This document shows positions 10,808 to 30,476 of a stretch of 42,171 nucleotides of DNA, in pieces. The stretch covers positions 1-42,171 of the IMG/VR virus record IMGVR_UViG_3300047564_004512. One strand, 5' to 3'. Below the pieces are notes generated by a model, which worked only from the letters and a program-made list of their open reading frames with translations, did no database searches and was not told the DNA's origin. The number at the start of each line of letters is the position of its first letter. The stretch's first letter is position 1. Position numbers and translations under genes: made by a program. The stretch comes from a virus.

Positions 10808-10836
10808 ATTGTATCGTAAATTGTAGGATTAGTCAA
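10808..10836 (-). promoter_or_regulatory. Canonical sigma70-type promoter
   Basis: On the minus strand TTGACT (10831-10836) and TACAAT (10808-10813) are exactly 17 bases apart. The TGA inside the -35 is the stop codon of the oxygenase gene at 10833-11561. The first ATG below is at 10781. The dyad found at the other cassettes is absent. Confidence 0.8.
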
Positions 10837-11561
10837 TCATCCTCAGTTCTTCTCCTATAACCCTCTCTCTTTAGTCTCTCATCAGTTGTTTTTTTCCAGG
10901 TAAAGTCTCTTTGTGGGTCATAGATAAATGGAGAATGTGCATGATTTTCTATAACATCTTTATAACAGATCCATCCAGTTGCTATGTACTTCTCTTTTGT
11001 ATATACAGGATTTCCTCTATGAACATGAGTAAATTGAGCAGGCCATAGAACACATCTTCCCACTTTTGGTTGAATTCTTACACCTTGCCATAAAAATTCA
11101 GTCTCTCCTTCACCCTCTGGAATATCATTTAAATATAAAATCCATGCTAGAGATCTTTCTAAAGAACTAACATCAGTTGTTTCACAATGCCATACATGAT
11201 ATCCTCCGCGTATTGGAGTTTTTTGAATTTTTACTGCTGGGTTAGTTAGTCTATCAAGAATATCAGAATATAAAATTTGATTATATGTAAAAAATACATT
11301 TTTATAGACTTCTACACACTTATCTACAGATTCTAGAAGTTTAGTAACAACTGGTTGGATTTTCTCATCATCTTTAAAGTTTAATAGATTTATTTGAAGA
11401 TCATGTCTTCCAAGATGCTTATATTCATCAAATTGATTTAGACCTAAGTGTTTCCTATCACCTCTACCTTCAAAAAAATCTATTAGAATATCACACTCTT
11501 CTTTTGTTAAACAATCATCATACGAACCAATAAAAAACTGATGAGAATGCTCCAAATCCAT
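10833..11561 (-). CDS. 2OG-Fe(II) oxygenase, prolyl-4-hydroxylase-like
   Basis: The iron-binding triad is visible as HCE (H125, E127) and a distal H179 in FTHVHRGNP, with WILYLNDIPEGEGETEF as the typical strand between. These enzymes use 2-oxoglutarate, O2 and Fe(II) to hydroxylate a substrate, and P4H-type members act on proline or other residues. At 242 residues the fold is complete. The gene follows the double-domain oxygenase by 1 base. The C-terminal tail is basic (KKTTDERLKREGYRRR). The substrate is unknown. Confidence 0.85.
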   Translation of the reverse strand: MDLEHSHQFFIGSYDDCLTKEECDILIDFFEGRGDRKHLGLNQFDEYKHLGRHDLQINLLNFKDDEKIQPVVTKLLESVDKCVEVYKNVFFTYNQILYSDILDRLTNPAVKIQKTPIRGGYHVWHCETTDVSSLERSLAWILYLNDIPEGEGETEFLWQGVRIQPKVGRCVLWPAQFTHVHRGNPVYTKEKYIATGWICYKDVIENHAHSPFIYDPQRDFTWKKTTDERLKREGYRRRTEDD

Positions 11562-11562
11562 A

Positions 11563-13089
11563 TCAAACTAACCATGTAATAATAGAATATCTAGTTCCGC
11601 TAGTTACAGGCATTACTTCATGGGGATACATAAAGTTTGATGGGAACATAATTACAGATCCTTTGTTTGGTCTAAGAACAACCTCTCTATCAAAGAAACC
11701 AAATTCACCACCGCCATAATCATCATTTAGGCACATTGTACAAGATATTGCTCTTGGTTGTTGTTTAAATGAATCAGTATGCTGAACATAAAAATCTCCA
11801 GTTTTATATCTTAGTAATTCATATCCACTGTCTTCATTTATTTCTATATCAAAATATGGGAATTTTGCTTGATATTTTGATAATGCATTAGCCACACATT
11901 CATAGAGTGCAGAATCTATCTTAGATCTATAATCTGGATTTTGGTTGATAACCTCTGGTTCAGATAATCCAATTACATTACAACGTCTAGATTCTTTATC
12001 AAGACCTCCACCAGTCAGTGCATTGTTCCACAAATCAGTATTAATATATTCATCCAATATTTCATCACACAATTCCAATGGAATAACATCATCGACTACT
12101 ACGATATAGTCAGATAGTTTCGTAGTTGATGTAGTTGAAGTAATCAATGCATTATCATTATTATCTTCAGCAAATTTTCTGTAGATAAATTTATCCTTTA
12201 TTGATTTTGTTACTGAAGTATTTTCTTTACTTTCATCAGTAATGTAATTGATAAAAGCTTTTTCATTTGTCTCATTATCAATAGGACTATCTGGTTCTTT
12301 ATTTACACTACCAGCGATTTTTTTAACTAGTTCTTCTAACTCACTCTCAAAAGTAATAGCTGGACTCATCACGTTCACCTCCTTTTCCTTAATGTTTTTA
12401 TTTTTTAAAACCTTTTTTACAAAATTGTCCGAATGTTGCTCGAATTGTTGGACATCATCTGAACTAGCAAACAATTTATTTTCTAATGCTAGATTTTTTG
12501 TGCTTTGCTCTTCATATAATTTTTTGAGCATCGCTGACTCTTCATTATTACTTACTTTATACTTATCAAAGTAAACATCAGAACATGGTCCATATGCTCT
12601 CACATAATGAGTGAAAAACTGAGCATACCATTCTCCTCTATATGCATCTCTCCAATGAGGAGCAACACATCCAAGGTAGATCATTGCGTCTCCTGGATTT
12701 AGATTAACACATCTTGGATTTCCTTCTGGAGTTTCTATCCATATTGACCACGGACGATCTCCATCTAAATGAACTGTTGCTGATATTTCACAAGCTGGTC
12801 TATCAGTATGCTTTTCTAATACAGAATCATTTTTATATATTCTACCATAGGTGTAAGTAGGCAATACTGGTGTTCCAATAATATCAGAAACATGTGATGT
12901 TTTTTCACATAGTAATTCTAGAGCTGGAAGATAATTATAACAACTGTGAGAGTTTAGAGCTTGTTTATCAGATGGAAAATTGTATTCTTCGGATACTAAC
13001 TTAAACTCTCTTGCTAATTCTTTGGCTCTATCACTGCATATGAAATTAGGAATTACTATATGGTTATTTTCTAGTAAGAAATCATTCAT
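11563..13089 (-). CDS. Fusion protein with two 2OG-Fe(II) oxygenase domains
   Basis: Domain 1 (residues about 1-178) has HTD (94-96) and H145 in APHWR. Domain 2 (about 328-508) has a P4H-like layout: VVDDVIPLELCDEI, HTD (437-439), YGGGEFGFF, then H490 and R500. Between them lies a 150-residue charged, Ser/Thr/Asn-rich linker that is probably disordered. Both domains keep their metal ligands, so both may be active. Having two catalytic domains on a linker suggests processive or multi-site hydroxylation. The gene lies between the coiled-coil gene and another oxygenase gene. Confidence 0.85.
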   Translation of the reverse strand: MNDFLLENNHIVIPNFICSDRAKELAREFKLVSEEYNFPSDKQALNSHSCYNYLPALELLCEKTSHVSDIIGTPVLPTYTYGRIYKNDSVLEKHTDRPACEISATVHLDGDRPWSIWIETPEGNPRCVNLNPGDAMIYLGCVAPHWRDAYRGEWYAQFFTHYVRAYGPCSDVYFDKYKVSNNEESAMLKKLYEEQSTKNLALENKLFASSDDVQQFEQHSDNFVKKVLKNKNIKEKEVNVMSPAITFESELEELVKKIAGSVNKEPDSPIDNETNEKAFINYITDESKENTSVTKSIKDKFIYRKFAEDNNDNALITSTTSTTKLSDYIVVVDDVIPLELCDEILDEYINTDLWNNALTGGGLDKESRRCNVIGLSEPEVINQNPDYRSKIDSALYECVANALSKYQAKFPYFDIEINEDSGYELLRYKTGDFYVQHTDSFKQQPRAISCTMCLNDDYGGGEFGFFDREVVLRPNKGSVIMFPSNFMYPHEVMPVTSGTRYSIITWLV

Positions 13090-13118: not shown

Positions 13119-14537
13119 TTAGAAAGTAAAGTTTAGCATATCTCTCATTTCTTTAGACTCAAGAAGTTGCTCATAGGTAATATTATACTTCTTACATAGC
13201 TCTTGTGCCTTCTGAATCTTAGAGAACCATCCAATGATTTTGTCTATTGGTAAAGTCTCTAGAGTAATAGTAGGATCCATCATAGCTGCCTTAAAGATAT
13301 CTAGTGGATCTTCAGATTGTGCAATTTTAGTAATTGCTTTTGCAGCTCTATTCTGAGCTTCATCTCTAACAATATTTCGTGTCTCTTGCTCAACAAGATT
13401 TTCAATTGCTAGATTCTTAAGTTGTTCATATGATCTCATTTCATATTCAACATCTTTTTCAACAATCTTAGACTGAAGTTCCTTCTCTCTATTTTCAAGT
13501 TCTTTTCTATGAATTTCAATTTCAGATCTCTGAAGTTCCAGAGTTTGAGTCATAATCTCAATTGATTGATCGTGAGCTTGTTTCATCTCATCAATCTTTT
13601 TTCTTTCCAATTTGATTTGCTCTAATTGAAGTTCATTTTGTTGAATCATTGATTGAGCACTTGATTCAGCTAAATCTCTTAGTCTTTGAATTTGAGAAGT
13701 TCTTTCCTCAAGCTCTTCATACCTCTTGTTAATATCGGTAAATGTAATTTCCTTTTCTTCAGCTAACTTTGTATTTAACTCATTAATTCTTTGATATTGC
13801 GCTGAAATTTCATCTTGAGATAATTTATTTTTTTCGTTTAAAATATTCTCAGATTCTTTTAATTGATTGATTTGTGCATTGATAGATTCTTCAATTACAC
13901 TCTTCTTTTCATCAATTTTATCAAAATAAGATTTTACTGTATTATCTACTTTTTCTGCTACTTTCCCCATCTCATCATGAGCTTTTAAAAGATCTTCATT
14001 TTGTTTTTGGAAATGTTCATTCCAGAATTTTTCCCTAGCAGAAATCTCCTGTTCTGATTGAAGTCTCTTATTTTCTGCTTCTAATCTTTGCTTTTCGATT
14101 TCCAGTCGTCTCGCTTCATTTTCACTTTCAACAATTTCTTTTGTTCTTTGCACTTCTAATGCATTTTTTGCTTCTCTTATTTTTTTATTTTCTTCAATGG
14201 TATGCTCTACCATTTTCTTTAATTGCTCTTTTTCCTCATCTACACTTTGGAGTTCGAGAGACTCTTGTTCTTTACGCTGCCTCTCTTCCTCTTCCCTTTT
14301 CATACGGATCTGTTCGATCTTAGGAATTTCATCGAAAAAGATATCCAAATATTTTTGAATATAATCAAGAGACTCGATTTCCTGATTAGGATCTCTAGTT
14401 ACGAATTCAATATGACCTTTATCGTGATTCCATTGAATAGCATGAATGTGTCCATCATTAAAATTCCAAGAATCAAATATGATTGGTCTACCATCTACTA
14501 CTACTTTCTTTTCACTAGGAATAATTGTAACTCTCAT
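13119..14537 (-). CDS. Long coiled-coil protein with a tail-protein-like N-terminus
   Basis: Residues 1-50 (starting MRVTIIPSEKKVVVDGRPI, then IHAIQWNHDKGHIEF) match a module I recall at the start of phage tail-associated proteins of the DUF4376 type. Residues about 78-380 are one continuous Glu/Lys/Gln-rich coiled coil. The last 80 residues are globular and helical (DIFKAAMMDPTITLETLPID). A helical rod of about 300 residues would be some 45 nm long. It may be a virion fibre or assembly part linked to the collar proteins just upstream. The exact role is not known. Confidence 0.7.
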   Translation of the reverse strand: MRVTIIPSEKKVVVDGRPIIFDSWNFNDGHIHAIQWNHDKGHIEFVTRDPNQEIESLDYIQKYLDIFFDEIPKIEQIRMKREEEERQRKEQESLELQSVDEEKEQLKKMVEHTIEENKKIREAKNALEVQRTKEIVESENEARRLEIEKQRLEAENKRLQSEQEISAREKFWNEHFQKQNEDLLKAHDEMGKVAEKVDNTVKSYFDKIDEKKSVIEESINAQINQLKESENILNEKNKLSQDEISAQYQRINELNTKLAEEKEITFTDINKRYEELEERTSQIQRLRDLAESSAQSMIQQNELQLEQIKLERKKIDEMKQAHDQSIEIMTQTLELQRSEIEIHRKELENREKELQSKIVEKDVEYEMRSYEQLKNLAIENLVEQETRNIVRDEAQNRAAKAITKIAQSEDPLDIFKAAMMDPTITLETLPIDKIIGWFSKIQKAQELCKKYNITYEQLLESKEMRDMLNFTF

Positions 14538-14542
14538 TTTTA

Positions 14543-14920
14543 CTAGTTTCCTCCTTCAGGATTTAATAGGTTTTGATCTTCTTCATTATTTTCAATTAGA
14601 TTTTGCTGAGACTCCTCAAAAAACCTAATTTCTTCAACTGCCTCAGATGCACCATAAAACATGTTTGCTGCTGCTTCTAGAATATTTAGATTGCTTTCAT
14701 TTGCTTTTACCATTTCATTTCTAAAGGATTCAACAGCTGCTCCAGTAGAACGTTGCTGCTGTGAATTTTCAATCAAAAGCATTGGAATCCAAGAAATGGT
14801 GCAATTCCATTCATCAACTTCTTGTCCAGTATTTGGATTTATACCTCTAATATGAGTATACCATGCACATTTATTTTGAATGCATTCTTTTTTAATCAAT
14901 GGACAATAATTATTTTTCAT
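14543..14920 (-). CDS. Conserved phage Cys-containing protein, 125 aa
   Basis: The N-terminal part has four Cys (positions 6, 13, 18 and 40) in CPLIKKECIQNKCAWYTHIR and WNCTISW, likely a metal site. A conserved helix LLIENSQQQRSTGAAVESFR follows, then an acidic tail. I recall this architecture as a widespread phage hypothetical protein, often near tail genes. A T4-like late promoter (ATAAATA) lies 35 bases above the ATG. It sits 5 bases above the coiled-coil gene and may function with it. Confidence 0.75.
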   Translation of the reverse strand: MKNNYCPLIKKECIQNKCAWYTHIRGINPNTGQEVDEWNCTISWIPMLLIENSQQQRSTGAAVESFRNEMVKANESNLNILEAAANMFYGASEAVEEIRFFEESQQNLIENNEEDQNLLNPEGGN

Positions 14921-14954: not shown

Positions 14955-14961
14955 TATTTAT
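14955..14961 (-). promoter_or_regulatory. Putative T4-like late promoter
   Basis: ATAAATA lies 35 bases above the ATG at 14920. It overlaps the stop codon (TAA) of the preceding collar gene. The core matches the T4 late promoter NATAAATA; its use here is inferred. Confidence 0.5.
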
Positions 14962-16442
14962 TGCAAATAGCAAAGAATAACATCTATGTATTGAACTCTT
15001 AAATCTACTGAGGAAGAAATACTTATGAGTCCGCCAGTATATGGGTGATTATGAGATCCATCACCGCCTGTTAATCCAGTATCTGGACCATTAGTGTTTG
15101 CAGTTCTTATCTGCCCACCAGGAACAAGTATTCTTGTAGCATATCTAGCATTCACTAATTGTGGATATCTTACGGGATTGTAATTTACAAGAGGAACATT
15201 TTTGTTAGCAACGATTCTTTTGGATGCCTGAATATAAGTATTTGCAATAACTCTTTTGTTCGCAATTACTCGGTTAACAATCGGTGATCTATTAACAATA
15301 GGAGTCCTTTTAGGTGCAGGACTTCTTAAATTCCTTGGTTGCTGATATGTTAGTGGATTTCTAGCAACAACTGGTGTTGTTCTTGGTTGTCTGTAACCAA
15401 CAGCAATTGGATTTCTTCTTGGTTGTTGATAAGATCTTGGTTGCTGAACGTTTGCTCTAGTATTGTTCTGCAATGATCTACTAATAGGGCTTCTTCTTGG
15501 TTGTTGATAAGATCTTGGTTGTGGAAAACTATAACTTCTTGGTTGAGCATAGTTACGAACTACCCTATTCCTATTTGGTCGGATAATTCGACCTCTTCTA
15601 GCATTATTATTTCTATCCCTTTCCCCAAATACATTTCGACCTCTGTTTCCAAAAGGAGCCTGTCGGTTAATTACGACTGTAGATTGAGTGTTGATAGGAG
15701 AAGTAAATGGTGACTGATAATTCCTTGTAAATGGATATGATCTCGGTTGCTGAACAGGAACACCAGCGTTAACAGGAGAAGTAAATGGTTGACGATAGTT
15801 TCTAATTACTGGAGTTCTGTATGGTTGTTGAGTTTGAGTCGGTTGTCTGTTAACAATAGGAACTGTATATACTGATGGTTGCCGATAAGTAGATGGCTGC
15901 TGATAAGTTAATGGTTGTTGATATGTTTTTGGTTGCCTATACGCTTGTGGTTGTCTAAATGATTGGGGTTGTGAATATGTTTGAGGTTGTCTATAAGCTT
16001 GTGGTTGTTGATAGTTTCTAACCTGTGCGTAAGCTACCCTAATACCATATTGTATAGGAGTTCTTTCCAGATACCTAGAAGGAGTAGCAGGTCCCGCAGC
16101 AATACCAGTATTCGCTCCTCCTGAACCGTGAGCGTGAGGTGCTATTTGACTAATAGTTAATGTAGTATCTCCAACAGTACCAACACCAACTGTTGTAGCA
16201 GCAATACTTACATTTGATACACTAGGAAAGGCGGAAGTAAAAGGTACATTTCCACCAGTAGCTCCACCAGTAGAACTAACAACCCTAAGAGCTTTATTAT
16301 CTTGAGATGTAGTTTTAGCCCAACCAGTCGGAGCATTTGCTTGATAAAAAACCACAGTGGTATTTTTAGGTATAATTCCATAGAAGGAATTAATTGCGGA
16401 ACTATCCCCAAATACTATACTGGTTGCTGTTAAAATAGCCAT
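14958..16442 (-). CDS. Short tail fibre/collar protein with a large Tyr-Gln-Pro-Arg-rich insertion
   Basis: Residues 1-106 and 448-494 match the 170-aa paralogue just upstream. They include YGIIPKNTTVVFYQ, the APTGW motif, ALRVVS, a first HAH motif (103-105), a second HNH motif (464-466) and the ending VDLRVQYIDVILC. This is the tail-collar (gp12/gp37-tip) design, in which HxH motifs bind metal and the segment between them forms the receptor-binding tip. The paralogue has 35 residues between the motifs; here there are 358. The insertion is made of YRQP, YQQP and QPRS repeats, then VNR/VIANK repeats. A strong TAGGAGGAGGG ribosome-binding site precedes the ATG. It is probably a host-recognition protein. 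Confidence 0.8.
   Translation of the reverse strand: MAILTATSIVFGDSSAINSFYGIIPKNTTVVFYQANAPTGWAKTTSQDNKALRVVSSTGGATGGNVPFTSAFPSVSNVSIAATTVGVGTVGDTTLTISQIAPHAHGSGGANTGIAAGPATPSRYLERTPIQYGIRVAYAQVRNYQQPQAYRQPQTYSQPQSFRQPQAYRQPKTYQQPLTYQQPSTYRQPSVYTVPIVNRQPTQTQQPYRTPVIRNYRQPFTSPVNAGVPVQQPRSYPFTRNYQSPFTSPINTQSTVVINRQAPFGNRGRNVFGERDRNNNARRGRIIRPNRNRVVRNYAQPRSYSFPQPRSYQQPRRSPISRSLQNNTRANVQQPRSYQQPRRNPIAVGYRQPRTTPVVARNPLTYQQPRNLRSPAPKRTPIVNRSPIVNRVIANKRVIANTYIQASKRIVANKNVPLVNYNPVRYPQLVNARYATRILVPGGQIRTANTNGPDTGLTGGDGSHNHPYTGGLISISSSVDLRVQYIDVILCYLQ
15333..16031 (-). repeat. Degenerate Tyr-Gln-Pro-Arg repeat tract
   Basis: Residues about 138-370 of the collar protein carry roughly two dozen short units of the form (T/A/S)Y(R/Q)QP(Q/R), with spacing of 6-8 residues. 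Later copies become QPRSYQQPRR. At DNA level the units share GGTTGTTGATA-like words on the plus strand. The amino acids are strongly biased to Y, Q, P, R and N, and the tract is probably disordered or extended. Confidence 0.85.
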
Positions 16443-16467: not shown

Positions 16468-16980
16468 TCAATTAAATCTACAAATTATTACATCAATATA
16501 CTGCACTCTTAAGTCAATTGTAGTTGACCAAGGAGAGTCTCCAGAAACGAATGGGTGATTATGAGGTAATCCGCCACCAGTAAGTCCAGTATTTGGAGCA
16601 TCAGTGTTTGCTAAACGTCCAGTAACACTAGGAGCTCCTGGTCTAACGTTGACTTCAGATCCAGCCCCGTGAGAGTGAGATGGAAGTTGTGATGTTATTA
16701 GTGTAGTATCTCCAACAGTACCTGTTGTCGTTACAATACCTGTGATTGGTTTTAATGTTCCGGGAAAAGCAGATGTAAAGGCAATACTTCCACCAGAACC
16801 TCCACCAGTTCCACTAACAACCCTTAGAGCTTTATTATTTTGAGTTGTTAATTGAGTCCATCCAGTTGGAGCAGACGCTTGATAGAAAACTACAACAGAA
16901 TTTTGAGGTATAATTCCGTATCTTGAATTTAGAGATGTACCATCGCTAAAATTAATACCATCTACTGTTAAGACTGACAT
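16468..16980 (-). CDS. Short tail fibre/collar protein, 170 aa
   Basis: This is the uninterrupted paralogue of the gene below. It shares YGIIPQNSVVVFYQASAPTG at 21-40 and ALRVVSGTGG at 51-60, with HSH at 102-104, HNH at 140-142 and the ending IDLRVQYIDVIICRFN. The HxH pairs suggest bound iron or zinc in a trimeric needle-like tip, as in T4 gp37. CTAAATA lies 35 bases above the ATG as a possible late promoter. It is followed after 25 bases by its enlarged copy, so the pair looks like a tandem duplication with later insertion. Confidence 0.8.
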   Translation of the reverse strand: MSVLTVDGINFSDGTSLNSRYGIIPQNSVVVFYQASAPTGWTQLTTQNNKALRVVSGTGGGSGGSIAFTSAFPGTLKPITGIVTTTGTVGDTTLITSQLPSHSHGAGSEVNVRPGAPSVTGRLANTDAPNTGLTGGGLPHNHPFVSGDSPWSTTIDLRVQYIDVIICRFN

Positions 16981-17030: not shown

Positions 17031-17672
17031 TTAGAAACTAATATTAAAAGAGATAGAAACTCTAGTATCATCTACAAGATTTGGTTCAACATAATGAAGA
17101 ATATGAGCAGGAAATAGATATACAACTCCAGGTTCAGCATTCAATTTAAAAAAACTACCATTATCTAAATTTTCATAAAGAAGAGTGTGAGCTGACCCAT
17201 CATTTCTCATCAAATTTAAGTTACCTTGCGTAAAATTAATCTTTGCATAATAAAGAGCTATTAAATCACACTTTGGGTGAGAATGAAGTACATTATAACA
17301 AAATTGTTCATTTATATTAATCCAAAATCCTGTTCCAGATTCTTGGAACATTCTTTGTGAATTCAATTCTTCTTCACACAGTTTATTAGCAAAAAATAAT
17401 ATTTTAGTTCCTAGATCAGATACTGCAGGGAGTTCGACTTCAGTTACAATTTCATCAAGATTATATACATCACTTTGCCATCCCCCAAAATTAGATTTTC
17501 TTACTCCATCAGGATATTTATCTCGAAGAGAATAGCATTCATTTAATATAACATCATTATCAACATTAACTTTTCCTGCCCACACTGTTGTAGGAAAAAT
17601 ATCAAAAGCTTCTACATCCGATATTTCTATATTGGATCTGTAAGGATTTACTCTGTGTTTGTGAACGGCCAT
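17031..17672 (-). CDS. 2OG-Fe(II) oxygenase of the TIGR02466/Oxy_5 type
   Basis: I chose the ATG at 17672 (MAVHKHRVNPYRS), which follows the preceding stop by 4 bases; a longer frame would overlap the neighbour. The family pattern is FDIFPTTVWAGKV at the start, HSH (130-132), then GVVYLFPAHILHYVEPN (H193), with R204 in RVSISFNISF. The 213 residues are the usual length. It lies directly upstream of the two collar genes. The substrate is unknown; virion proteins are an attractive guess only. Confidence 0.85.
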   Translation of the reverse strand: MAVHKHRVNPYRSNIEISDVEAFDIFPTTVWAGKVNVDNDVILNECYSLRDKYPDGVRKSNFGGWQSDVYNLDEIVTEVELPAVSDLGTKILFFANKLCEEELNSQRMFQESGTGFWININEQFCYNVLHSHPKCDLIALYYAKINFTQGNLNLMRNDGSAHTLLYENLDNGSFFKLNAEPGVVYLFPAHILHYVEPNLVDDTRVSISFNISF

Positions 17673-17676
17673 AATA

Positions 17677-18354
17677 TTATTTGTTTTTATCCTTGAAGAA
17701 GAATACCTGATTAATCCTGTAATTATTACTCTCTTTTGTCCCAAAATATCTTTTATCGGTTATATTCATTCCATGATGGAATCTATCACCTTCAAAACAA
17801 ACGAACCTATTATATTTTGATTTAAATTTTCCTATAACTTTCCAATGCTCTTTTGGAACCCAAGCATTCAAATGTTCTGGGATATTATCATAGTCTGGAT
17901 CTTTATACATTCTCTGATAAATGTTGGTCCCACATTCACCATCAGAATAATCATTAAAATATACTATACCGTTCCACCCCGCATCTCTGTGAGGCCACCA
18001 ATAATTATTTTCAAAATCATTATATGGAACATCATAGAATTTAGTCATATTAGTGACGAACTCAGTATCATCTAGAGGTACTGTTTTTCCATCTCCAATT
18101 ATATCAACTATATCCCAAAAGACATCTTTCAATTCATCATAGAATAATTCATGCCTTCTATCCTCAAAATATCTCATATTATGAGTATTTCCATTACCTT
18201 CCTGTTGTTTCCATACTGGACAATTGGTATTCATTATATGGTCACGAATTAGATCTGGATACTTGTAAAAATTATCCATATAGAATATTCTACTATCTCC
18301 AAATCTTTCTTCTATCATGTTTGATAGATCATTTACTTCGAATATATTAATCAT
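17677..18354 (-). CDS. 2OG-Fe(II) oxygenase-like protein (DUF6445-like)
   Basis: The pattern WWPHRDAGWNGIVYFN (H122, D124), FVCFEGDRFHHGM (H194) and YRINQVFFF (R213) fits the double-stranded beta-helix fold of 2OG enzymes and the DUF6445 proteins I recall from phages and marine bacteria. All metal ligands are present. It stands 4 bases before another oxygenase gene of a different subtype. The substrate is unknown. Confidence 0.75.
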   Translation of the reverse strand: MINIFEVNDLSNMIEERFGDSRIFYMDNFYKYPDLIRDHIMNTNCPVWKQQEGNGNTHNMRYFEDRRHELFYDELKDVFWDIVDIIGDGKTVPLDDTEFVTNMTKFYDVPYNDFENNYWWPHRDAGWNGIVYFNDYSDGECGTNIYQRMYKDPDYDNIPEHLNAWVPKEHWKVIGKFKSKYNRFVCFEGDRFHHGMNITDKRYFGTKESNNYRINQVFFFKDKNK

Positions 18355-20126: not shown

Positions 20127-20714
20127 TCAATCACCAAAAATGTGATTTATTTTTTCTTGATCTATACAGAATCCAAACACCCACAAAATCCTATTTCTTT
20201 TTCCAGTTGTCTTTGTTACCTCATGATATTGTTTAGAGACAATATAGCATAATAAGTCTCCCTCCTCAATATCATATTCTACATCTTCAATAATCGTAAT
20301 TCCACCAGACTCTGCTTTTTGTGTAATTATATTGCAGTGCATGGTCTCTGTTCCTTCATAATATGTTGGATCTACATGTTTACATATTGAACCATTTTCG
20401 AATCCAATTCCATTCACAATACCATTAAAATAAGATGGAGGAGTTTTTACTCCGTCCATCCGAAATAAATCAATAATTCTATCTTGGATATCAAAAGCTA
20501 CTTTTGGATATTGAATTTGATATTCCTTTTTAGAGTGATCCTCAGAGTTTCCTAATCTTGTAGTAAACCTAGTTTCTTCATAATAGTCATCCATATGAGG
20601 ATCATGATATTGATGTCTATTTTTTTGAAAATTATTAATAGACCATAAATTTAATGAATCTATTTCATTTTCAGAAATAAATTTCTTTATTACTTTTGCA
20701 TATGTTTTAGGCAT
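20127..20714 (-). CDS. 2OG-Fe(II) oxygenase, 195 aa
   Basis: The triad is KHVDPT (H113, D115) and YHEV (H164), with R173 or R175 in GKRNRILWVFG to bind 2-oxoglutarate. The strand GGITIIEDVEYDIEEGDLLC between them fits the fold. It overlaps the upstream oxygenase gene by 8 bases, so three of these enzymes are made from one operon. The substrate is unknown. Confidence 0.85.
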   Translation of the reverse strand: MPKTYAKVIKKFISENEIDSLNLWSINNFQKNRHQYHDPHMDDYYEETRFTTRLGNSEDHSKKEYQIQYPKVAFDIQDRIIDLFRMDGVKTPPSYFNGIVNGIGFENGSICKHVDPTYYEGTETMHCNIITQKAESGGITIIEDVEYDIEEGDLLCYIVSKQYHEVTKTTGKRNRILWVFGFCIDQEKINHIFGD

Positions 20715-21333
20715 TGGGAGATCTAAAATTATATGAAATAGTTATCCTAGTCCCAGAAGCGGGTGGTACATGATGGAGTAATTTTGATGGGAAAATGAGC
20801 ATGTGTCCCTCACCAATTCCATGCTCTTGGGCATCTTTTTGTCCAAAATATAAACCATTTTCAAATGGAGTAATTGCTGCATTATAATTGTACCAAGCAG
20901 TAGTATTATATTCTTCTGGAATTGAAAGGAGATAGATGCCAGAGAAATCATTTTTATTGCTATGATCGTGAGTTTCTTGAAATTCTCCTTTATTGTAATA
21001 ATTATACCAAAGATTACTGAGACTAGATTCAGAATAATTTCCAATTTCCGCCTCAGTACATAACATTTGCGAATCAATCAATTCATCAATAAATTCAGAG
21101 TAAGAATTCCAGATAGCATCAATAAGAGGTTCATATGCTAAGATACTCTTATCAACATCAACTGGGGAGTGAAAAGATGAAGTTGAGTTGCATTCCCAAC
21201 AAGATTCATCTCGGTAAGATTTACCATTCAATCTATAATCTTTCTCAATTTTTGGTAAAAGATATTCTTTTAGTTGATTGTGATTTGGAACTTTTGTCCA
21301 GAATACAAAAGGAGAATGAAAAAAGTGAATCAT
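20707..21333 (-). CDS. 2OG-Fe(II) oxygenase of the Oxy_5 type, 208 aa
   Basis: The motif is THDHSNKNDFSGIYLLSIP (H122, D123, H124), followed by GHMLIFPSKLLHHVPP (H187/H188) and R196 in TRITISYNFRS. The layout matches TIGR02466-type phage enzymes. It is coupled to the upstream oxygenase by a 4-base overlap. The substrate is unknown. Confidence 0.85.
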   Translation of the reverse strand: MIHFFHSPFVFWTKVPNHNQLKEYLLPKIEKDYRLNGKSYRDESCWECNSTSSFHSPVDVDKSILAYEPLIDAIWNSYSEFIDELIDSQMLCTEAEIGNYSESSLSNLWYNYYNKGEFQETHDHSNKNDFSGIYLLSIPEEYNTTAWYNYNAAITPFENGLYFGQKDAQEHGIGEGHMLIFPSKLLHHVPPASGTRITISYNFRSPNA

Positions 21334-22049
21334 ACAAATACATACTCCCTAGTTGACTTTGTTTTTGTTACAAAATTAAATGAGAGGACAATTCTTTCAA
21401 CATCACTAGAGTTTGGAGATGTGTAATGTAGAACTGATGATGGAAATAAGATCATAGATCCTTCTTGTACCAGATGAGCAGGAGAATAAATTTGAGGATT
21501 ACCAATAAAATTGGACAAATATGGATTCACAAATTGAGTTGGTGTATGAACTCTCTCGTCATATTGAATATAAACAACGACACTATATCCAACAGGACCA
21601 TGAGTATGAACTTCGTGATGAGTTAACTTTGTGCTTGTTTCAAACCATGAATTCTCCATTACAAGATCGATATCATCAAGATCATCTGGAGCTAACATAT
21701 ATTCAGATCCTGGATCTTTTTTCTGCTCAAAATCATCTTTATTGAAAAGAACATCTTTTGCTAGGAGAATTTCTTCTTCAAGAATATCATAAATTGCAGG
21801 ACTGTATGAATTGCAATTTTTAGAATTATAATGATAATCCGTATTTACATCACCAGGACCGCCTATTTGAATTGCATTTTTCTTGGAATATGAATAAATT
21901 TGCAGCAAATCTTGTTTTTTTTCTTCCCAATTGTTAATCCTAATATGAAGAAGAGGCACACTGAACATGGGCATAAAATGACATGTTGTTTCCACTTGTA
22001 TTGGTGCTGAAAATTTTTCAGCATTACTATTAAAAAGATGTTTACTCAT
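21330..22049 (-). CDS. 2OG-Fe(II) oxygenase of the TIGR02466/Oxy_5 type, 239 aa
   Basis: FMPMFSVPLLHIRI at the start is the family's opening strand. HEVHTHGPVGYSVVVYI (H148, H150) and GSMILFPSSVLHYTSPN (H208) give the metal site, with R219 before IVLSFNFVT. It begins a run of three overlapping oxygenase genes. The substrate is unknown. Confidence 0.85.
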   Translation of the reverse strand: MSKHLFNSNAEKFSAPIQVETTCHFMPMFSVPLLHIRINNWEEKKQDLLQIYSYSKKNAIQIGGPGDVNTDYHYNSKNCNSYSPAIYDILEEEILLAKDVLFNKDDFEQKKDPGSEYMLAPDDLDDIDLVMENSWFETSTKLTHHEVHTHGPVGYSVVVYIQYDERVHTPTQFVNPYLSNFIGNPQIYSPAHLVQEGSMILFPSSVLHYTSPNSSDVERIVLSFNFVTKTKSTREYVFV

Positions 22050-23077: not shown

Positions 23078-26000
23078 TCAATCCACATAATCAAATAGAG
23101 CGGCACCTCTCCATCTGGATCCACCATTATCGGTAACAAACATGAATAGATGAGTTTTTCCTGCTGTTAACAAGGGAGCTTGATCCTCTGGGAATTTAAC
23201 AGAAGAAGGCCACGAAATACTTCCAGATACATGAGTGATTTCAATCGTAACACCAAATACACCAGAAGCAGGAACATTACTAAATGAGAATGTAGTATTA
23301 GAATTAACAGTAGCAGTAAAGTAATTACCTAGTGAGCAATTAATAACAGTTCCTACTCCAACAGAAACTACATTCTGGGATACTGTTCCAGTAATATTCA
23401 GTGAATTATTAACACTAACTGAATTTGTTACAATAGTTGGTAGTGTAGAAATACCAGTAGAATTTATATTTCTGGAAGTAGATATACTACCAGTTACTGA
23501 TAAGTTTCCAGATGCTGCAACATTTGATATAGTAATATCATTTGCAAAAATATTACCAGTAAAAGTAACATCATTGGAGTTGTATGGATACGAAAATACT
23601 ACACTATTAATACTAGAATTTCTTCTGTAGAATGAAATAGAATCTGCTTCCTCATTTAATGCAAAAGATGGGGACAGGTTTCCATTATAAGAAACTCCTC
23701 CACCTCTTGTTGAACGTGATCCAACATAAAGATATCCAGTCCCTTGTGTATCGCCAAATGCTTCAAAACCTGCTGTATTATTATCTCCTGATAGAGACTG
23801 AATAACTGTGTTTGCAGATCTTGATGTATTTCCTGCAGATACATCACCAGCAAAGTTTGCTGTAGAATTTGTAAAATTAGTAGTATTTAATTCCGTAGTA
23901 ATGATTGACCCAGTAACATTTAAATCGTCAATGGATGCTCCACTGAAAACTTGAATACCAGCATTTGCTCTAATTTGGGAATTAAATGTAGTCACTCCTG
24001 CAACTACAGCTCCTCTATTAACAAATACAATATCATTAGTTATAACATCATTCTGGAATGTTGATACTCCAGCAACAAGTAGATATTGTGGCTCTACTGA
24101 ACTTGAGAATAAAGTTAATGTAGCAATTCCACTACTAACATCTACTCCACCAGAAATAGATACGCCAAGTCCAATAAGATTTAAACTAGTTGTAACTCCA
24201 AGATATTCTCCGTAAGTAGAAATTCCAAGGTTTCTAGATAATGGAACTATTTCAGAAATAAGACCAAAATCTTCCCATCTATTGGATGTAGTGTAAACCC
24301 ATCCAAAAGTTCCTCCACTATCAGGAGATGCATTATAAACTACGTCTCCCGCATTTCCTTCATAAGTTGGCTTAGTATTTGATGTAGTATACTTTCTTGA
24401 AATTTTCACATCTCCCTGCAGATACAGAGATTCAGCTTCAATTCCTTTAGTTGAAGTTGATGTTACCTTGTTATTAAAGATAACTGGACCATTGAATTCT
24501 GAAATAATGTTTCCATCAGTTCCACCTTCAACTTTTATTGATCTTCTTACAGTTGTTTCCGCTACATTTTGAACATCAAATCCAACAGAATCTGGAGATG
24601 TAATATCTTCTCCAGTTACAGTTGGAACTGGAGCATCAAATACTTCTTCTTTTCCTGTTGTGGAATTTAATTTTTTATTTCCAATATAGAAATCACCATT
24701 ACTATTCATCGCAGTGAATGCGACAACTCCACCATCAACTTTAGATGATTGAGAAAGAAGTTCTTCTTGGGCAGTTAGTTGTCTATCTTGCCTTTCTGGG
24801 AAAGCAGTTGAATAATTTCCAGAACCATATCCAAGATATTCGAAAGTGTGACCAGATGCTCTGATAATAGAGTTTCTTCTTAATTCTACTGGTATTGGTC
24901 TAATTCTTCTAACTACAGCGCCAACATTGTGAGTGCTTCTTCTGGATCCAAGAACTCCTCTGAATACAGAAACTGGATTACCATCAACAGATTCTCTAAC
25001 TCTCATTACCTCATCATTAATTTGTAAATAATCACCCAACTCCAAGTCAAGATCATTGACTGATGTGAGACTGATATTTGCAATGTCTGCTGAGGAAACT
25101 GCACCAGAAAGAGTTGTACTTAGGTTATCATAAGTTGGAATTTGTCTTCCAGAAATACTTTCATTTTGTCTTGTAATTAATCCACCACGCGAATCAAATC
25201 CATTTTTATATGCATATATTGTTCCTAGTGCATTTGGAACAGTTGTACCAATACCAACATTAACCTCAAATCTTGTGTTATTAACAAACTTAGTAACAAT
25301 GAAATCATCATTGTATCCGCTATAGTTAGCACCGCTAATTCTAACTTTATCACCAAGTAAGAATGGGTGATTTTGCAATGTGGTGAAGGAAACAACACCA
25401 GTATTTTGGTTATATGATAAAGAAGAAATACCAATAGTTGGACCTAAAATATATGCTTTCGCAGAATTAACAACTGTTTGTCCAACTCCAAGTGTAGAGA
25501 TACCATTTATTTGTCTAGAGGATTCGACAAATAAGACTCTTTGACTTAATGTTGATATACCAGTAATTCTGTATAGAGTATTATACTCATCATATAGTGA
25601 ATCTATATTATTAACATAAAGAGTATCACCAATATTATTATAAGTCTTAGAAACTTCTACGATTGCTGTAGTATATCCTACGGTTGTTCCAACGCCAACA
25701 ACAAATAATCTATCACCAATATTATAACCACCTCCACCGTCCATAACTTTGACGCCAGTAAGTGATCCAGTTCCATCAATACTGATAACAGCAGTTGCAT
25801 TATTTCCAGTTACAGAATTTGATGTTCCTACTAGAGATGCATTGTACACTACCTGATTAGAACCACTACCATATCCAAATCCAGGATTAATAATGGAAAG
25901 TTTTGAAATTCTATTTAAGTTATGGTCAATGCTAGTGTATATTGTATGAGCTATTCCTGAAGACGGTGTGGATATAATATTAGTAATAGCAATACCAACA

Positions 26001-29000
26001 TTAAAATCAGAGTAGATTTTATTGATAGTCTCTTTTGTAATACTAGATTCTGGATCATCTACTATCACCTGACCAACTGGATCGGGAAGAGCATATGATA
26101 CAGATGCCTTTGGATCTATTGTTGGATTATCTCTATTGATCTGTGGATAAAGATTCTGAATTGGTTGTCCAAAATTCTCAAGTTCAAAAGGAGATACTAT
26201 AGGGGTATTCGATGTATTTGTTACTATTAAATAATATACACCATCTTGTTGATCTCTAACGTATCTCTGAACTTCCTCAGACCTATAAATCGTATATGTT
26301 CCAGTATATCTACTCTTATAGAAATAAGGTAGATTTTCATTTCTTACTGAGGTATTATTTGTAAATGTCCCAGGATCACTCGACAACTCTACTACAAATT
26401 GCCTTGAATTTGGAATAGAATCAACATAATATTCTCCATTATATGCAACATAGTCATCTCCAGATGGATTTTGAGTACTTGTTACATTACCAATATAAAC
26501 AATAGATCCAATACTCAAATTATGGGGAAGTTCTGTAGTGAAGGTAACTGATCCAGCACTCCAGGTAGCATTTGATATAAATCTAAAGTTTCTTAGCTCT
26601 GAACTATCTGAAAGTGTTTTTTCGGAAAGACTATAATATTTTTCAGTTTCAGATTGGGTACTGAACACATCACTAGACTCTTGAATAACATATCCTTCAG
26701 TAGGGGGTCTAGATGTAAACGGAGTATCTTTTGGTATTACATACCGCAATCTGTATATTCTATCAGTTAATGGTCTAGTATCTGGTTGTCTTAGAATATA
26801 TGTTCTTGGTGTAGATTGTCCAGATAACGATGATAGTAATGGGGTTATTGTATTATCAGTACTAGAAACATTAACGTACCACTGATTGTTAAAAGTATCC
26901 CATTGGATAGGATGTCCAATTTCTCCAGACTTCTTATCGGATACTCTACTAATAACACGTACAGTGCTTGTTTCATTGCTATAAATTGTCGTTTCTTGTC
27001 CAATTAATGCATCATTAAATGTTTTAGCAATTTGAATCTTATCTGCAGACAAACCACTAGTAATTGCATAATAAACTTGACCATTAATTAATCCATCTGG
27101 TATTTGACCAGTATCACTAACTATTCTTATTGTCTCGCCATTTTCAAAACTATGATTTTCTATAAATGTTATAGTATTTGCTGTTATTTCATTTGATATT
27201 CCATTTACCTTCTTAGCAACAGTAAATGACTTTTCATAACTGGTTTCAGTACCAGGCATCACTATTCTAGCCTGATATTGAGTTGATATTCCAGAAACCT
27301 CTATATCAACATACAGTCTATCATTTCGTTTAGCTCCAAGTCTATATCCATCAATTACTGTTTCTGGAGATATGACTTGATTTTTTTCATTATACAAATA
27401 AAGATGAGATGTAGTTCCAACACCGACACTCTGTTGAATATCAATGGAGGTAAATTCAACACTAATATCAGAAAATTCTGTTTCTCTTGGTGGAATTATA
27501 TGAGTAATATATCCAACATCATCTTTTGGAAAAGATTTATTTCTAAATCCTTTTGATACTAAAGATTTTGCTCCAAAGTTGGAGTTTGAGTTTGTTATGG
27601 AAAGATCTCCTCCACTTGTTGCGAGGAAATGAACTCCATAACCAATAGCAAATACAGAAACTATTTGAATGAAAGCATTATTACTTGCCTTTACATGATA
27701 ACTCTCATAAGATGGTTTGTATCTGGATAAAGAATCTGAATATAGATTAGCGATACTAGAAGAATCTTCATATGATCCAGACTCTGGGTTATACTTAACG
27801 AAAGCCTTATTATCTTTTTGAAGACCAATACCAGTGAACTGTGCTACAACAATACTCTTAAATCCATCAGCTTTGCTTCCATCAGCATGTAATCCACACA
27901 TTCCATATACGGAACGTAGAGAAATATTAAAGATATATGGAGATGCTGATGTTACGGTATCAGCGACTATACTTAGACTCGCTTCTGCAATTTCAGATAC
28001 GGATGGTAAAGGAGTTAATGGTGCCGTTTGAGATTGATACTCAATTACGGTATCACTAATTATTTCACTAACAACAAATTGTCCGGTATATCCATTAACA
28101 GTAATACCTTGGATTTGAATAGGAGTATCAACATCCAATCCATCTAATGGTTCATTTAGTGTTACCGTGATTGTATTTGATGAAATAACACCATCTCCAG
28201 CTCTAATGCTAGAGATACCCACTTCTGCACCTCTAGATCCTACAATTCTATACTCATCAACTTTTGCTTCAATATCTAGTGGATTATTTACAGTTTCAGG
28301 TTCAATAGGTCTACCGCTGCTCGTTCCATAAACTGCACCAATCTTATTATAATAGCAATCTAAGTCTGTTTTGTTACCATCAAACCATACTAAAAAGTCA
28401 TCATTAATATTGACTGGATTTACACCATCGGCATATTCAAAGCAAGTTAATTTATGATGAGAAAAGTTTGGAACAAAAGTATTATTTGTATAATCCTTAT
28501 AGCAAATTGCATTTGGATCAGCATCAAATAGACTAAACTGCCACATGTAGCAGGATCCAGTTAATCTAAAGACCGCAGATCTCTCGATATTATCATTTTC
28601 TGGGTTGGGGACATATCTTGGTCTTATCTTTGTTTTTCTTAAATCAAGACCAACGATAGAAGTACCTCTAGGTACTATAACACCACCATGAATACTATTG
28701 AGTTTATAAAGACTATTATTATCAGCTAGTAGATCAAAATTTGTAGTTAGATCAAATGGCGGCAAATCATTCGTAAAATTACCAGACCTAGTATAATAGT
28801 TACCATCTCCTGTTGGTATCCATCCAGGTCTATTATCTACAATATGTTCTCCTGGATAGAGAAGGATAGTAGTTTTTCCAAATCTATCATTTTCTCTACC
28901 AACTTGGTATGAAAATCTAGCTGCTTCAACTAAAGCTCTTTGGATAGTTTTGAAGGGTCTTGCGAGAGAGTTTCCTTGATTCTCAATACTATCTGTTGAG

Positions 29001-29077
29001 TCTAAGCTAGAAGGATCAACATAGAGTATCTCCCCTTTTGTATTTTTTAGAAAATTATCTAAGCGACTAAGACCCAT
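23078..29077 (-). CDS. Giant tail fibre/virion structural protein, 1999 aa
   Basis: The N-terminus (MGLSRLDNFLKNTKGEILYV, then RPFKTIQRALVEAARFSYQV and TTILLYPGEH) is the start of a pectin-lyase-like beta-helix typical of large cyanophage structural proteins. The middle is made of many short beta modules with repeated VGVGTT, GFGYGSG and GGGGYNIGD motifs. The last 85 residues (WPSSVKFPEDQAPLLTAGKT, then SRWRGAALFDYVD) match a common tail-fibre C-terminus. The protein is Asn/Ser/Thr-rich with no signal peptide. It is probably a long fibre or a baseplate-attached fibre that contacts the host. An ATAAATA late promoter lies 31 bases above. Confidence 0.8.
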   Translation of the reverse strand: MGLSRLDNFLKNTKGEILYVDPSSLDSTDSIENQGNSLARPFKTIQRALVEAARFSYQVGRENDRFGKTTILLYPGEHIVDNRPGWIPTGDGNYYTRSGNFTNDLPPFDLTTNFDLLADNNSLYKLNSIHGGVIVPRGTSIVGLDLRKTKIRPRYVPNPENDNIERSAVFRLTGSCYMWQFSLFDADPNAICYKDYTNNTFVPNFSHHKLTCFEYADGVNPVNINDDFLVWFDGNKTDLDCYYNKIGAVYGTSSGRPIEPETVNNPLDIEAKVDEYRIVGSRGAEVGISSIRAGDGVISSNTITVTLNEPLDGLDVDTPIQIQGITVNGYTGQFVVSEIISDTVIEYQSQTAPLTPLPSVSEIAEASLSIVADTVTSASPYIFNISLRSVYGMCGLHADGSKADGFKSIVVAQFTGIGLQKDNKAFVKYNPESGSYEDSSSIANLYSDSLSRYKPSYESYHVKASNNAFIQIVSVFAIGYGVHFLATSGGDLSITNSNSNFGAKSLVSKGFRNKSFPKDDVGYITHIIPPRETEFSDISVEFTSIDIQQSVGVGTTSHLYLYNEKNQVISPETVIDGYRLGAKRNDRLYVDIEVSGISTQYQARIVMPGTETSYEKSFTVAKKVNGISNEITANTITFIENHSFENGETIRIVSDTGQIPDGLINGQVYYAITSGLSADKIQIAKTFNDALIGQETTIYSNETSTVRVISRVSDKKSGEIGHPIQWDTFNNQWYVNVSSTDNTITPLLSSLSGQSTPRTYILRQPDTRPLTDRIYRLRYVIPKDTPFTSRPPTEGYVIQESSDVFSTQSETEKYYSLSEKTLSDSSELRNFRFISNATWSAGSVTFTTELPHNLSIGSIVYIGNVTSTQNPSGDDYVAYNGEYYVDSIPNSRQFVVELSSDPGTFTNNTSVRNENLPYFYKSRYTGTYTIYRSEEVQRYVRDQQDGVYYLIVTNTSNTPIVSPFELENFGQPIQNLYPQINRDNPTIDPKASVSYALPDPVGQVIVDDPESSITKETINKIYSDFNVGIAITNIISTPSSGIAHTIYTSIDHNLNRISKLSIINPGFGYGSGSNQVVYNASLVGTSNSVTGNNATAVISIDGTGSLTGVKVMDGGGGYNIGDRLFVVGVGTTVGYTTAIVEVSKTYNNIGDTLYVNNIDSLYDEYNTLYRITGISTLSQRVLFVESSRQINGISTLGVGQTVVNSAKAYILGPTIGISSLSYNQNTGVVSFTTLQNHPFLLGDKVRISGANYSGYNDDFIVTKFVNNTRFEVNVGIGTTVPNALGTIYAYKNGFDSRGGLITRQNESISGRQIPTYDNLSTTLSGAVSSADIANISLTSVNDLDLELGDYLQINDEVMRVRESVDGNPVSVFRGVLGSRRSTHNVGAVVRRIRPIPVELRRNSIIRASGHTFEYLGYGSGNYSTAFPERQDRQLTAQEELLSQSSKVDGGVVAFTAMNSNGDFYIGNKKLNSTTGKEEVFDAPVPTVTGEDITSPDSVGFDVQNVAETTVRRSIKVEGGTDGNIISEFNGPVIFNNKVTSTSTKGIEAESLYLQGDVKISRKYTTSNTKPTYEGNAGDVVYNASPDSGGTFGWVYTTSNRWEDFGLISEIVPLSRNLGISTYGEYLGVTTSLNLIGLGVSISGGVDVSSGIATLTLFSSSVEPQYLLVAGVSTFQNDVITNDIVFVNRGAVVAGVTTFNSQIRANAGIQVFSGASIDDLNVTGSIITTELNTTNFTNSTANFAGDVSAGNTSRSANTVIQSLSGDNNTAGFEAFGDTQGTGYLYVGSRSTRGGGVSYNGNLSPSFALNEEADSISFYRRNSSINSVVFSYPYNSNDVTFTGNIFANDITISNVAASGNLSVTGSISTSRNINSTGISTLPTIVTNSVSVNNSLNITGTVSQNVVSVGVGTVINCSLGNYFTATVNSNTTFSFSNVPASGVFGVTIEITHVSGSISWPSSVKFPEDQAPLLTAGKTHLFMFVTDNGGSRWRGAALFDYVD

Positions 29078-29154: not shown

Positions 29155-29751
29155 TTAATTTTTCCACATAACTTTTAAATTTTTATCAAAAATCATTAAA
29201 TATCTGTGTTTACGACTACGATCTCTCCATTCACCATCTTTACCTTTGATAGAACCTCTTGAATGCTTAGTACCATCAGCATAGTAAAAGTCTTTCTTAG
29301 GATCAGTTAGACCGTAGTAAGTAAAATTACAAGCTCTGTATATAGTTCCAACGTGGTGATTAGCATCAGCGTAACTAAGAATAGCACGAACGCGGGCATC
29401 TTTTCTAAACCTCTTAATACATTTACTAACAAACCATGAAGTGATATTATATTCTTCTCTTTGCACCTCTGGATCTATACAAAGACGAGAAAGTTCAAAT
29501 AAACCTTCTTGATCATCTCTTTGAAGACCAAAGGCACCTACGGCAATTTCTGGAACTGGGAGACCAGTAAAAACGCAAGCACCAAGACACCCGCCAATTC
29601 TAATGGGGCATTCCCAGTCAGTATATCTGAAGAGTCCATAATTATATCCAGATTTAAAATCTTTAGATTCGTCTTTTAAATAGTGATGAGTATATAATAA
29701 ATCTTTAATTTCATTTTTACTCACTCTTTCTATATAGAATTCAGACTTCAT
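29155..29751 (-). CDS. Mom-like GNAT-fold acyltransferase
   Basis: The conserved path is FELSRLCIDPEVQREEYNIT (residues 85-104), then a helix WFVSKCIKRFRKDAR, then ILSYADANHHVGTIYRACNF (124-143). This matches phage Mu Mom and related phage proteins, which have a GNAT-like fold; Mom adds a carbamoylmethyl group to adenine. By that family link it may modify phage DNA, or be another acyltransferase. The 198 residues are of usual size. It stands between a 2OG oxygenase gene and the giant fibre gene. Confidence 0.65.
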   Translation of the reverse strand: MKSEFYIERVSKNEIKDLLYTHHYLKDESKDFKSGYNYGLFRYTDWECPIRIGGCLGACVFTGLPVPEIAVGAFGLQRDDQEGLFELSRLCIDPEVQREEYNITSWFVSKCIKRFRKDARVRAILSYADANHHVGTIYRACNFTYYGLTDPKKDFYYADGTKHSRGSIKGKDGEWRDRSRKHRYLMIFDKNLKVMWKN

Positions 29752-29786: not shown

Positions 29787-30476
29787 TCAAGATATTTCTA
29801 ACCACATACTAGGGTGAAGAGTAGATAATTCCAAATCAATTTCTAATGGATTCTTTCTAGTAGTTATCATTAGGTCATAAGAAACAGAGTACCTATAATC
29901 ATCTCCATAATACTTTGATACTTCATGTTCTAAAGTGGATGGGAATATTACCATCTTATTATTTGATGGTTCTATAAAATAATCTATATGTCTATACCGA
30001 GAGTCAGCTTTACTACAATGTATAGGAAGTAGATTCATTGTACTTCTCATAGACTCATGAAATATCAAATCTCCACCACAATGATTTCTATCATATTGTT
30101 TTTGAGTTTTTATATAATAAACTAAACTTAAATGTGAATTTCTATGAGTATGCTTACCAACACTACCTCCTTGAGGATTTACTATTACTGGCCAAGCTTT
30201 TTGTATATGAATGGATGTTTGAAATACATCCGCATTCAGAGACTTTAAATATCTTTTAACATGATATGCAACTTGACTATTCAACCAAGAAAAAGTGGGA
30301 TTATTAAATATCAAGTATTCATTGAGTATATCTCCAGTAACATTAGTATCTTTTATTTCATCTTTAGATCTTTCTAAGAAATCATCCATATAAGATAGCA
30401 TCATGTTATATACTTTTTCTGAAGGATTCAGATCATATGTGTATATCGAAGTGGGAAGTATCGTATTCAGTCCCAT
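29787..30476 (-). CDS. 2OG-Fe(II) oxygenase of the Oxy_5 type, 229 aa
   Basis: The motif is GKHTHRNSHLSLVYYI (H109, H111), followed by CGGDLIFHESM, then KMVIFPSTLEHEVSKYY (H184), with R195 in YRYSVSYDL. It resembles the TIGR02466-type enzymes at 17-22 kb. It is followed after 35 bases by the Mom-like gene. The substrate is unknown. Confidence 0.8.
   Translation of the reverse strand: MGLNTILPTSIYTYDLNPSEKVYNMMLSYMDDFLERSKDEIKDTNVTGDILNEYLIFNNPTFSWLNSQVAYHVKRYLKSLNADVFQTSIHIQKAWPVIVNPQGGSVGKHTHRNSHLSLVYYIKTQKQYDRNHCGGDLIFHESMRSTMNLLPIHCSKADSRYRHIDYFIEPSNNKMVIFPSTLEHEVSKYYGDDYRYSVSYDLMITTRKNPLEIDLELSTLHPSMWLEIS

Follow-up and report, generated by a model that had tools for sequence, protein, structure and literature searches.

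A hexad-repeat insert between the HxH motifs of a predicted cyanophage tail-fibre tip, flanked by 2OG-Fe(II) oxygenase genes

We analysed a stretch of viral DNA of 42,171 nucleotides (IMG/VR record IMGVR_UViG_3300047564_004512, positions 1 to 42,171), here called the window. Relatives of one of its tail proteins are found mainly in Synechococcus and Prochlorococcus myoviruses (at most 48% identity), so the window most likely derives from an uncultured T4-like cyanophage. A gene for a 494-aa protein lies at 14958-16442, with the coordinates and length given in the original prediction, which left the strand unstated; it is the minus strand. Read directly, the gene has its ATG at 16442 and its end at 14958, and an AGGAGG-type ribosome-binding site (GGAGGAGG, 16457-16450) stands 7 bases 5' of the ATG. 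The gene, its parts and its nearest neighbours are as follows.

14958 to 16442, minus strand: 494-aa tail-fibre-tip protein with a hexad-repeat insert between its HxH motifs (open reading frame, paralogue alignment, ribosome-binding site)
16137 to 16442, minus strand: N-terminal collar-like part, residues 1-102 (54% identity to the neighbour; profile match to 9qgo and 9nxk)
16128 to 16136, minus strand: first HxH motif, HAH, residues 103-105 (invariant in 42 of 42 rows of alignment A5)
15054 to 16127, minus strand: the 358 residues between the HxH motifs, with two hexad-periodic arms (about 320 more than in the short paralogue)
15555 to 15650, minus strand: Arg/Gly/Asn-rich apex, residues 265-296 (insert midpoint, apex fraction 0.48)
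15045 to 15053, minus strand: second HxH motif, HNH, residues 464-466 (invariant in alignment A5)
14961 to 15044, minus strand: C-terminal part leading back to the collar, residues 467-494, with LRVQYIDVILC (nearly invariant in A5)
16468 to 16980, minus strand: short tip paralogue of 170 aa with 35 residues between the HxH motifs, directly upstream of the tip gene
14543 to 14920, minus strand: neighbour of 125 aa at the position of S-SCSM1_246 (gene order identical in S-SCSM1)
13119 to 14537, minus strand: neighbour of 472 aa at the position of S-SCSM1_247, charged and probably a coiled coil (sequence and gene order)

BLAST aligns residues 1-115 and 443-492 of the long protein to its 170-aa neighbour at 54-56% identity, confirming the predicted match of the flanks. 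The open reading frames and motif positions likewise bear out the predicted placement of the insert, with 358 residues between the HxH motifs against 35 in the short protein. The paired motifs, putatively metal-binding from their sequence, are invariant across the 42 rows of alignment A5. A conserved V-Q-Y-I-D-V-I-C block follows the second motif, in what appears to be the order known from gp37. Pfam, PHROGs and NCBIfam recognised neither the insert-bearing protein nor the insert.

A profile built from 29 short tips matches two phage tail fibres of solved structure (9qgo, E 3.3e-10; 9nxk, E 1.3e-5), with both HxH motifs covered. Using tblastn, we found the same tip domain at the C-terminus of a 780-aa tail fibre of phage S-B43 and of a 914-aa protein of Roseobacter podovirus CRP-361. 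In T4 gp37, the collar consists of residues 811-881 and 1010-1026, the iron-bearing needle lies between them, and the receptor-binding surface is at the needle end (PMC6957217). Since the window-type proteins share this collar-needle-collar order, the insert would lie in the needle, between the two metal sites. This is where it was first predicted to be, and the profile match over both motifs and the same placement in relatives now add to the case; we regard the tip extension as fairly secure. AlphaFold single-chain prediction reached a mean pLDDT of only 33.8 for L009, a protein of clade D (the S-SCSM1 clade). The model of the window protein (mean pLDDT 48.7) gave no match in Foldseek; this low-confidence model has long strands at residues 137-164 and 396-423, roughly symmetric about the apex, which we take as a hint only.

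The only cultured phage in which we found a full counterpart is Synechococcus phage S-SCSM1. Its genes 244 (178 aa, short) and 245 (421 aa, with the insert) stand in the same order as in the window and are followed by two more genes and then an oxygenase, which also matches the window. Around 30 further distinct metagenome proteins carry the insert. The original prediction tied it to this one point of the tip, and in relatives it always occurs at the identical point, never at an unrelated place. Scanning with S-SCSM1 245 gave 19 viral loci and a profile scan for tip proteins gave 80, while a pattern of three [YF]xQPxx hexads retrieved more diverged members among many unrelated matches. In the loci inspected, the insert-bearing protein comes directly after the short tip. 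We also considered a cellular origin and rejected it, as a scan of bacterial and archaeal genomes gave just two weak, partial matches.

The spacing between the two HxH motifs is bimodal. Among 97 distinct tip proteins it is either 32-56 residues (69 proteins) or 275-365 (28 proteins), with none between; a looser search added L096, L099, L117 and L118, with spacings from 279 to 366. In the S-SCSM1 clade the spacing is exactly 284 in each of 12 distinct proteins. Insert length is thus nearly fixed within clades, so the repeat number does not float. Comparing insert length and repeat number across relatives had been suggested at the outset: the insert does recur, but free variation in copy number within clades is rejected. 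The near constancy of length also makes the insert look structured rather than floppy, judging from sequence. The pN/pS ratio was compared in clades A and D, and in the insert it resembles that of the flanking domains (0.41 vs 0.48 in the S-SCSM1 clade, 0.24 vs 0.22 in the closest clade), indicating that the insert is translated and under purifying selection.

These data bear on the suggestion that the repeat arose by replication slippage, as a neutral or selfish expansion of low complexity tolerated in a surface loop, or else is an assembly artefact. Repeat units of 18 bp are indeed detectable in the insert DNA and the composition is biased, as such an origin would have it. However, the exactly constant length in the 12 proteins, the bimodal spacing and pN/pS values of 0.2-0.4 in two clades all argue the other way, and we consider this reading, already largely refuted, to be very improbable. 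An artefact, raised in the original prediction as a point to check, is rejected, since cultured S-SCSM1 and many other metagenome assemblies show the same architecture. A 65.5-kb contig also carries the insert locus identically over the 12 kb compared, although it may come from the same sample.

The insert is strongly basic and repetitive. In the window it contains 49 Arg, 5 Lys, 3 Asp, 2 Glu, 45 Pro, 42 Gln, 33 Asn and 25 Tyr residues; His, Cys, Trp and Met are absent, and the pI is 11.8. Its autocorrelation against shuffled sequences peaks at multiples of six residues (z = 10.0 at lag 6, 7.7 at lag 12 and 9.0 at lag 18). Nearly all insert-bearing members show a strong lag-6 signal with harmonics at 12 and 18 and depleted odd lags. 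Counted from Pro, the hexad consensus is P-x-[N/S/T]-[Y/F/N]-[R/Q]-[Q/N], and the period is present in each arm separately in most clades, being weak in L105 and L126. Most of the arms are almost free of Gly, which stays below 1% in four of ten deciles of the insert and nowhere reaches a third. We therefore rejected a collagen-like identity: the period is six, it is not based on Gly, and there are no Gly-X-Y triplets.

Between the arms lies an Arg/Gly/Asn-rich segment (RNNDRFPRRRGGRRRRNDR in S-SCSM1, GNRGRNVFGERDRNNNARRGRIIR in the window protein). By an apex score of our own choosing, 27 of 28 proteins have this apex at 0.46-0.51 of the insert length. In the clade average, Arg makes up 9% of residues at one end of the insert, 31% in the middle and 6% at the other end. 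The original prediction described a loop of YRQP-type repeats; the biased repeats are there, but they are better described as two hexad arms of equal length meeting at the Arg/Gly-rich apex.

In clade A (mirror r 0.86) and clade B (0.93), conservation drops symmetrically towards the middle of the insert; the symmetry is weak in clade D (r 0.46) and absent in clade E (r -0.18). In two clades variability is greatest near the insert midpoint, which is what a distal contact surface would show. The symmetry fits a hairpin without proving one, because any loop that is variable in its middle would also yield it. Taken together, the hexad period of both arms and the Arg/Gly-rich segment at the midpoint suggest a gp37-type needle extended as a hairpin, with a polycationic tip. 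L080 and L087, one close pair of proteins, share 96% identity in the collar but only 54-72% around the apex, as would be expected where a surface makes contact. The strongly diverged apex region of this pair, with pN/pS near 0.9, suggests that the distal tip changes rapidly or recombines.

The annotation of S-SCSM1 marks the short paralogue (S-SCSM1_244) as a virion protein, whereas the insert-bearing S-SCSM1_245 lacks this note. We counted 48 such notes in the annotation, and the available part of the S-SCSM1 paper gives 45 detected proteins (PMC9602691). At least six tryptic peptides of S-SCSM1_245 are of a size suited to mass spectrometry; low copy number or an unsearched modification could explain the missing note. 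The long protein might instead be absent from the virion, helping assembly, serving as a decoy or being released as a cationic protein that acts on the host or competitors. Both the missing note and the extreme basicity of the insert are in line with such a role. Proline- and arginine-rich as it is, the insert also faintly resembles the proline-rich antimicrobial peptides of insects. Yet the protein retains its collar, both HxH motifs and its C-terminal strand, the short homologues are tail-fibre tips, and tryptic mass spectrometry could easily miss a low-copy tip with an Arg-rich insert. We consider a non-virion protein unlikely, and continue with the extended tip.

The original prediction recognised the tip but missed what surrounds it. 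HMM searches place seven 2OG-Fe(II) oxygenase-like genes around the tip pair in the window, with a weak eighth at 29790.

10833 to 11561, minus strand: 2OG-Fe(II) oxygenase, downstream of the tip pair (PF13640, E 1e-11)
11563 to 13089, minus strand: 508-aa protein with a C-terminal 2OG-Fe(II) oxygenase domain and a second HxD...H domain (PF13640, E 2e-18)
17031 to 17744, minus strand: 2OG-Fe(II) oxygenase (2OG-FeII_Oxy_5), directly upstream of the tip pair (PF13759, E 1.7e-14)
17677 to 18354, minus strand: 2OG-like protein with conserved HxD...H, orthologue of S-SCSM1_242, which is annotated as a 2OG oxygenase (no Pfam match)
20127 to 20714, minus strand: 2OG-like protein with conserved HxD...H...R, orthologue of S-SCSM1_241 (below the Pfam cut-off)
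20707 to 21333, minus strand: 2OG-Fe(II) oxygenase (PF13759, E 3e-11)
21330 to 22049, minus strand: 2OG-Fe(II) oxygenase (PF13759, E 1e-10)

Five of the seven (those starting at 10833, 11563, 17031, 20707 and 21330) pass the Pfam cut-off for PF13640 or PF13759; those at 17677 and 20127 do not. The HxD/E...H triad is at least 95% conserved in oxygenase groups B, C, F, G and H, and groups A, D and E have HxH...H in its place. The PF13759-type genes at 17031-17744, 20707-21333 and 21330-22049 show HxH...H at the metal-ligand position, and this is conserved in their orthologues. In the double-domain protein (11563-13089), HxD/H is conserved in 50 homologues, and this companion also occurs beside pairs of two short tips. 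PHROGs names its N-terminal 180 residues 'ferrochelatase', a family name that may be wrong, since the conserved HxD...H of this stretch resembles that of a second 2OG domain. Further upstream of the module, the window contains a 1999-aa open reading frame (23078-29077) with zero Pfam matches, probably a large virion or fibre protein, and a Mom-like DNA modification protein (29155-29751, PHROG 1384) within the structural-gene region.

The presence of these genes follows that of the insert. Where an insert-bearing locus has 2.6 kb or more of upstream flank, at least two 2OG-like genes lie there; this holds for all 42 such loci, and 40 of them have four to six. Downstream of insert-bearing tips there are two or three, where the flank reaches. 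At all 19 loci with two short tips there are zero 2OG genes upstream, and the one downstream is the double-domain protein. Near-identical contigs account for some of the loci in these counts. In S-SCSM1, seven of the ten genes flanking the tip pair are 2OG genes, compared with 24 of about 280 genome-wide (P ~1e-6, post hoc). Against this, S-SCSM2R, whose two tips are both short, has a gene annotated as 2OG within a few genes of them.

In a tree of the shared downstream oxygenase, the insert-bearing and short groups each occupy one side of one branch. The association thus appears to represent a single event, faithfully kept since, and the perfect split (Fisher 3e-16) does not amount to independent replicates; 2OG modification of the arms would likewise rest on this one evolutionary event. 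Among other YxQP-type repeat proteins from the pattern scan, two loci, L083 and L085, had a 2OG-like gene nearby, too few to make a second case.

Two further gene neighbourhoods may be mentioned here. Two loci with paired short tips (L141:9157-11652 and L161:9205-11608) have two or three GT25-like genes in tandem after the double-domain 2OG gene. Their GT25 matches are all below cut-off, but hydroxylation followed by glycosylation is worth testing in such phages. A different phage protein of 460-473 aa, with FQQPYx and ATRPATG-type short repeats, occurs at L076:7948-9327 and L088:1277-2695 (minus strand). It directly adjoins a radical SAM/SPASM gene (Pfam-confirmed in L076; the L088 neighbour starts alike), and the two may possibly form a repeat-modifying pair.

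What might the oxygenases beside the tip do? These enzymes are widespread in marine cyanophages, usually with one to five in each and 24 in S-SCSM1, according to the available text of the S-SCSM1 paper, in which the authors state that the functions were not specifically investigated (PMC9602691). The literature we examined gives no substrate for any cyanophage 2OG oxygenase. One reading is that the tip extension is real, but that the insert is an unmodified polycationic brush or rod, and the 2OG genes serve host metabolism or 2-oxoglutarate signalling and were inherited with the late cluster. The published proposals, as far as the accessible parts of these papers go, are of this kind, namely nitrogen signalling, energy or DNA repair (PMC9602691, PMC3037559); the association has a single origin, and S-SCSM1 has 17 further 2OG genes elsewhere in its genome. 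Harder to reconcile with this are the upstream genes, four to six of which stay put through deep clade divergence and none of which accompany pairs of short tips, as well as their dominance among the flanking genes of S-SCSM1. We are doubtful of an unmodified insert, but take it seriously.

The explanation we prefer combines an extended gp37-type needle with hydroxylation of its arms by the flanking enzymes. The tip would be a trimer of collar-plus-needle type, as in T4 gp37, with the needle lengthened. Each chain would exit the collar, pass the first HxH site and run outward for about 160 residues as an extended hexad arm. After a turn at the Arg/Gly-rich apex, an equally long second arm would lead back to the second HxH site and the collar. 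Three such chains would form a thin rod with a dense positive crown (about +49 per chain and +150 per trimer) that contacts the negatively charged cyanobacterial surface. An elongated hairpin needle of this form, with an Arg-rich apex, an HxH-stapled base and a positive far end, seems to us probable.

Before or during assembly, the 2OG-Fe(II) oxygenases may hydroxylate Pro in the arms, and perhaps Arg, Asn or Tyr, thereby stiffening or chemically tuning the rod. The double-domain oxygenase would already have stood beside pairs of short tips, and the bank would have grown where Pro/Arg/Asn/Tyr-rich arms arose. From the genomic association, we put forward only tentatively that the flanking oxygenases modify the tip, most simply as prolyl hydroxylases. 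A dedicated multi-enzyme hydroxylation pathway acting on a virion adhesin, giving a hardened, modified polycationic tip, goes further and is rather unlikely on present evidence; so is the parallel that such a hydroxylated tip would offer, in principle, to collagen or mussel foot protein. For the combined explanation as a whole, we see something short of an even chance.

If this is true, some of the many 2OG oxygenases of cyanophages, at present classed as metabolic, would have a role in tip modification, and a puzzle over viral auxiliary genes would become directly testable virion chemistry, for which a cultured phage is available. The tip itself would represent a new architecture, in which a hexad hairpin poor in Gly and rich in Arg lengthens a metal-stapled needle. 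It has a bearing on the way broad-host cyanophages stay attached to cells in seawater, and may offer a new class of short-period fibre for structural work.

Viral 2OG hydroxylases accompanied by repetitive Pro-rich proteins have precedents in the Mimivirus collagens with the L230 hydroxylase and in the prolyl 4-hydroxylase of PBCV-1. Those cases involve collagen-type or Pro-rich proteins of eukaryotic viruses, whereas here the candidate substrate is a phage tip with a non-collagen hexad and clustered 2OG genes. The collagen-like tail fibres of E. coli prophages also have an extended low-complexity segment in a phage protein, but, in the available part of their description, it is built of Gly-X-Y repeats (PMC3368898), unlike the nearly Gly-free arms described here.

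A metal-stapled fibre tip is in itself of a known kind. The T4 gp37 tip (collar D10, needle D11, HxH iron sites) likewise forms its collar from an N-terminal stretch and a short C-terminal strand, has HxH motifs and carries its receptor-binding part at the needle end (PMC6957217). The window protein differs in having just two HxH motifs per chain and about 320 extra His-free residues of Arg/Pro/Tyr hexads, a needle extension not described for gp37. The tail fibres 9qgo and 9nxk match over the stretch with both HxH motifs, but in the alignments their stretch between the motifs is short and without a repeat insert. We found no description of an Arg-rich hexad hairpin extension in the literature searched, which omits most subscription journals, and within that same scope the linkage of a hairpin tip to an oxygenase bank appears unreported. 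The accessible text of the S-SCSM1 paper leaves the insert of 245, there a 'short tail fiber protein', unremarked. This protein is nevertheless the closest parallel in gene order, insert position, Arg/Pro/aromatic hexads, the Arg/Gly apex at the midpoint and 2OG genes on both sides; it differs in that its insert is 74 residues shorter and twice as Arg-rich (31% vs 15% in the window).
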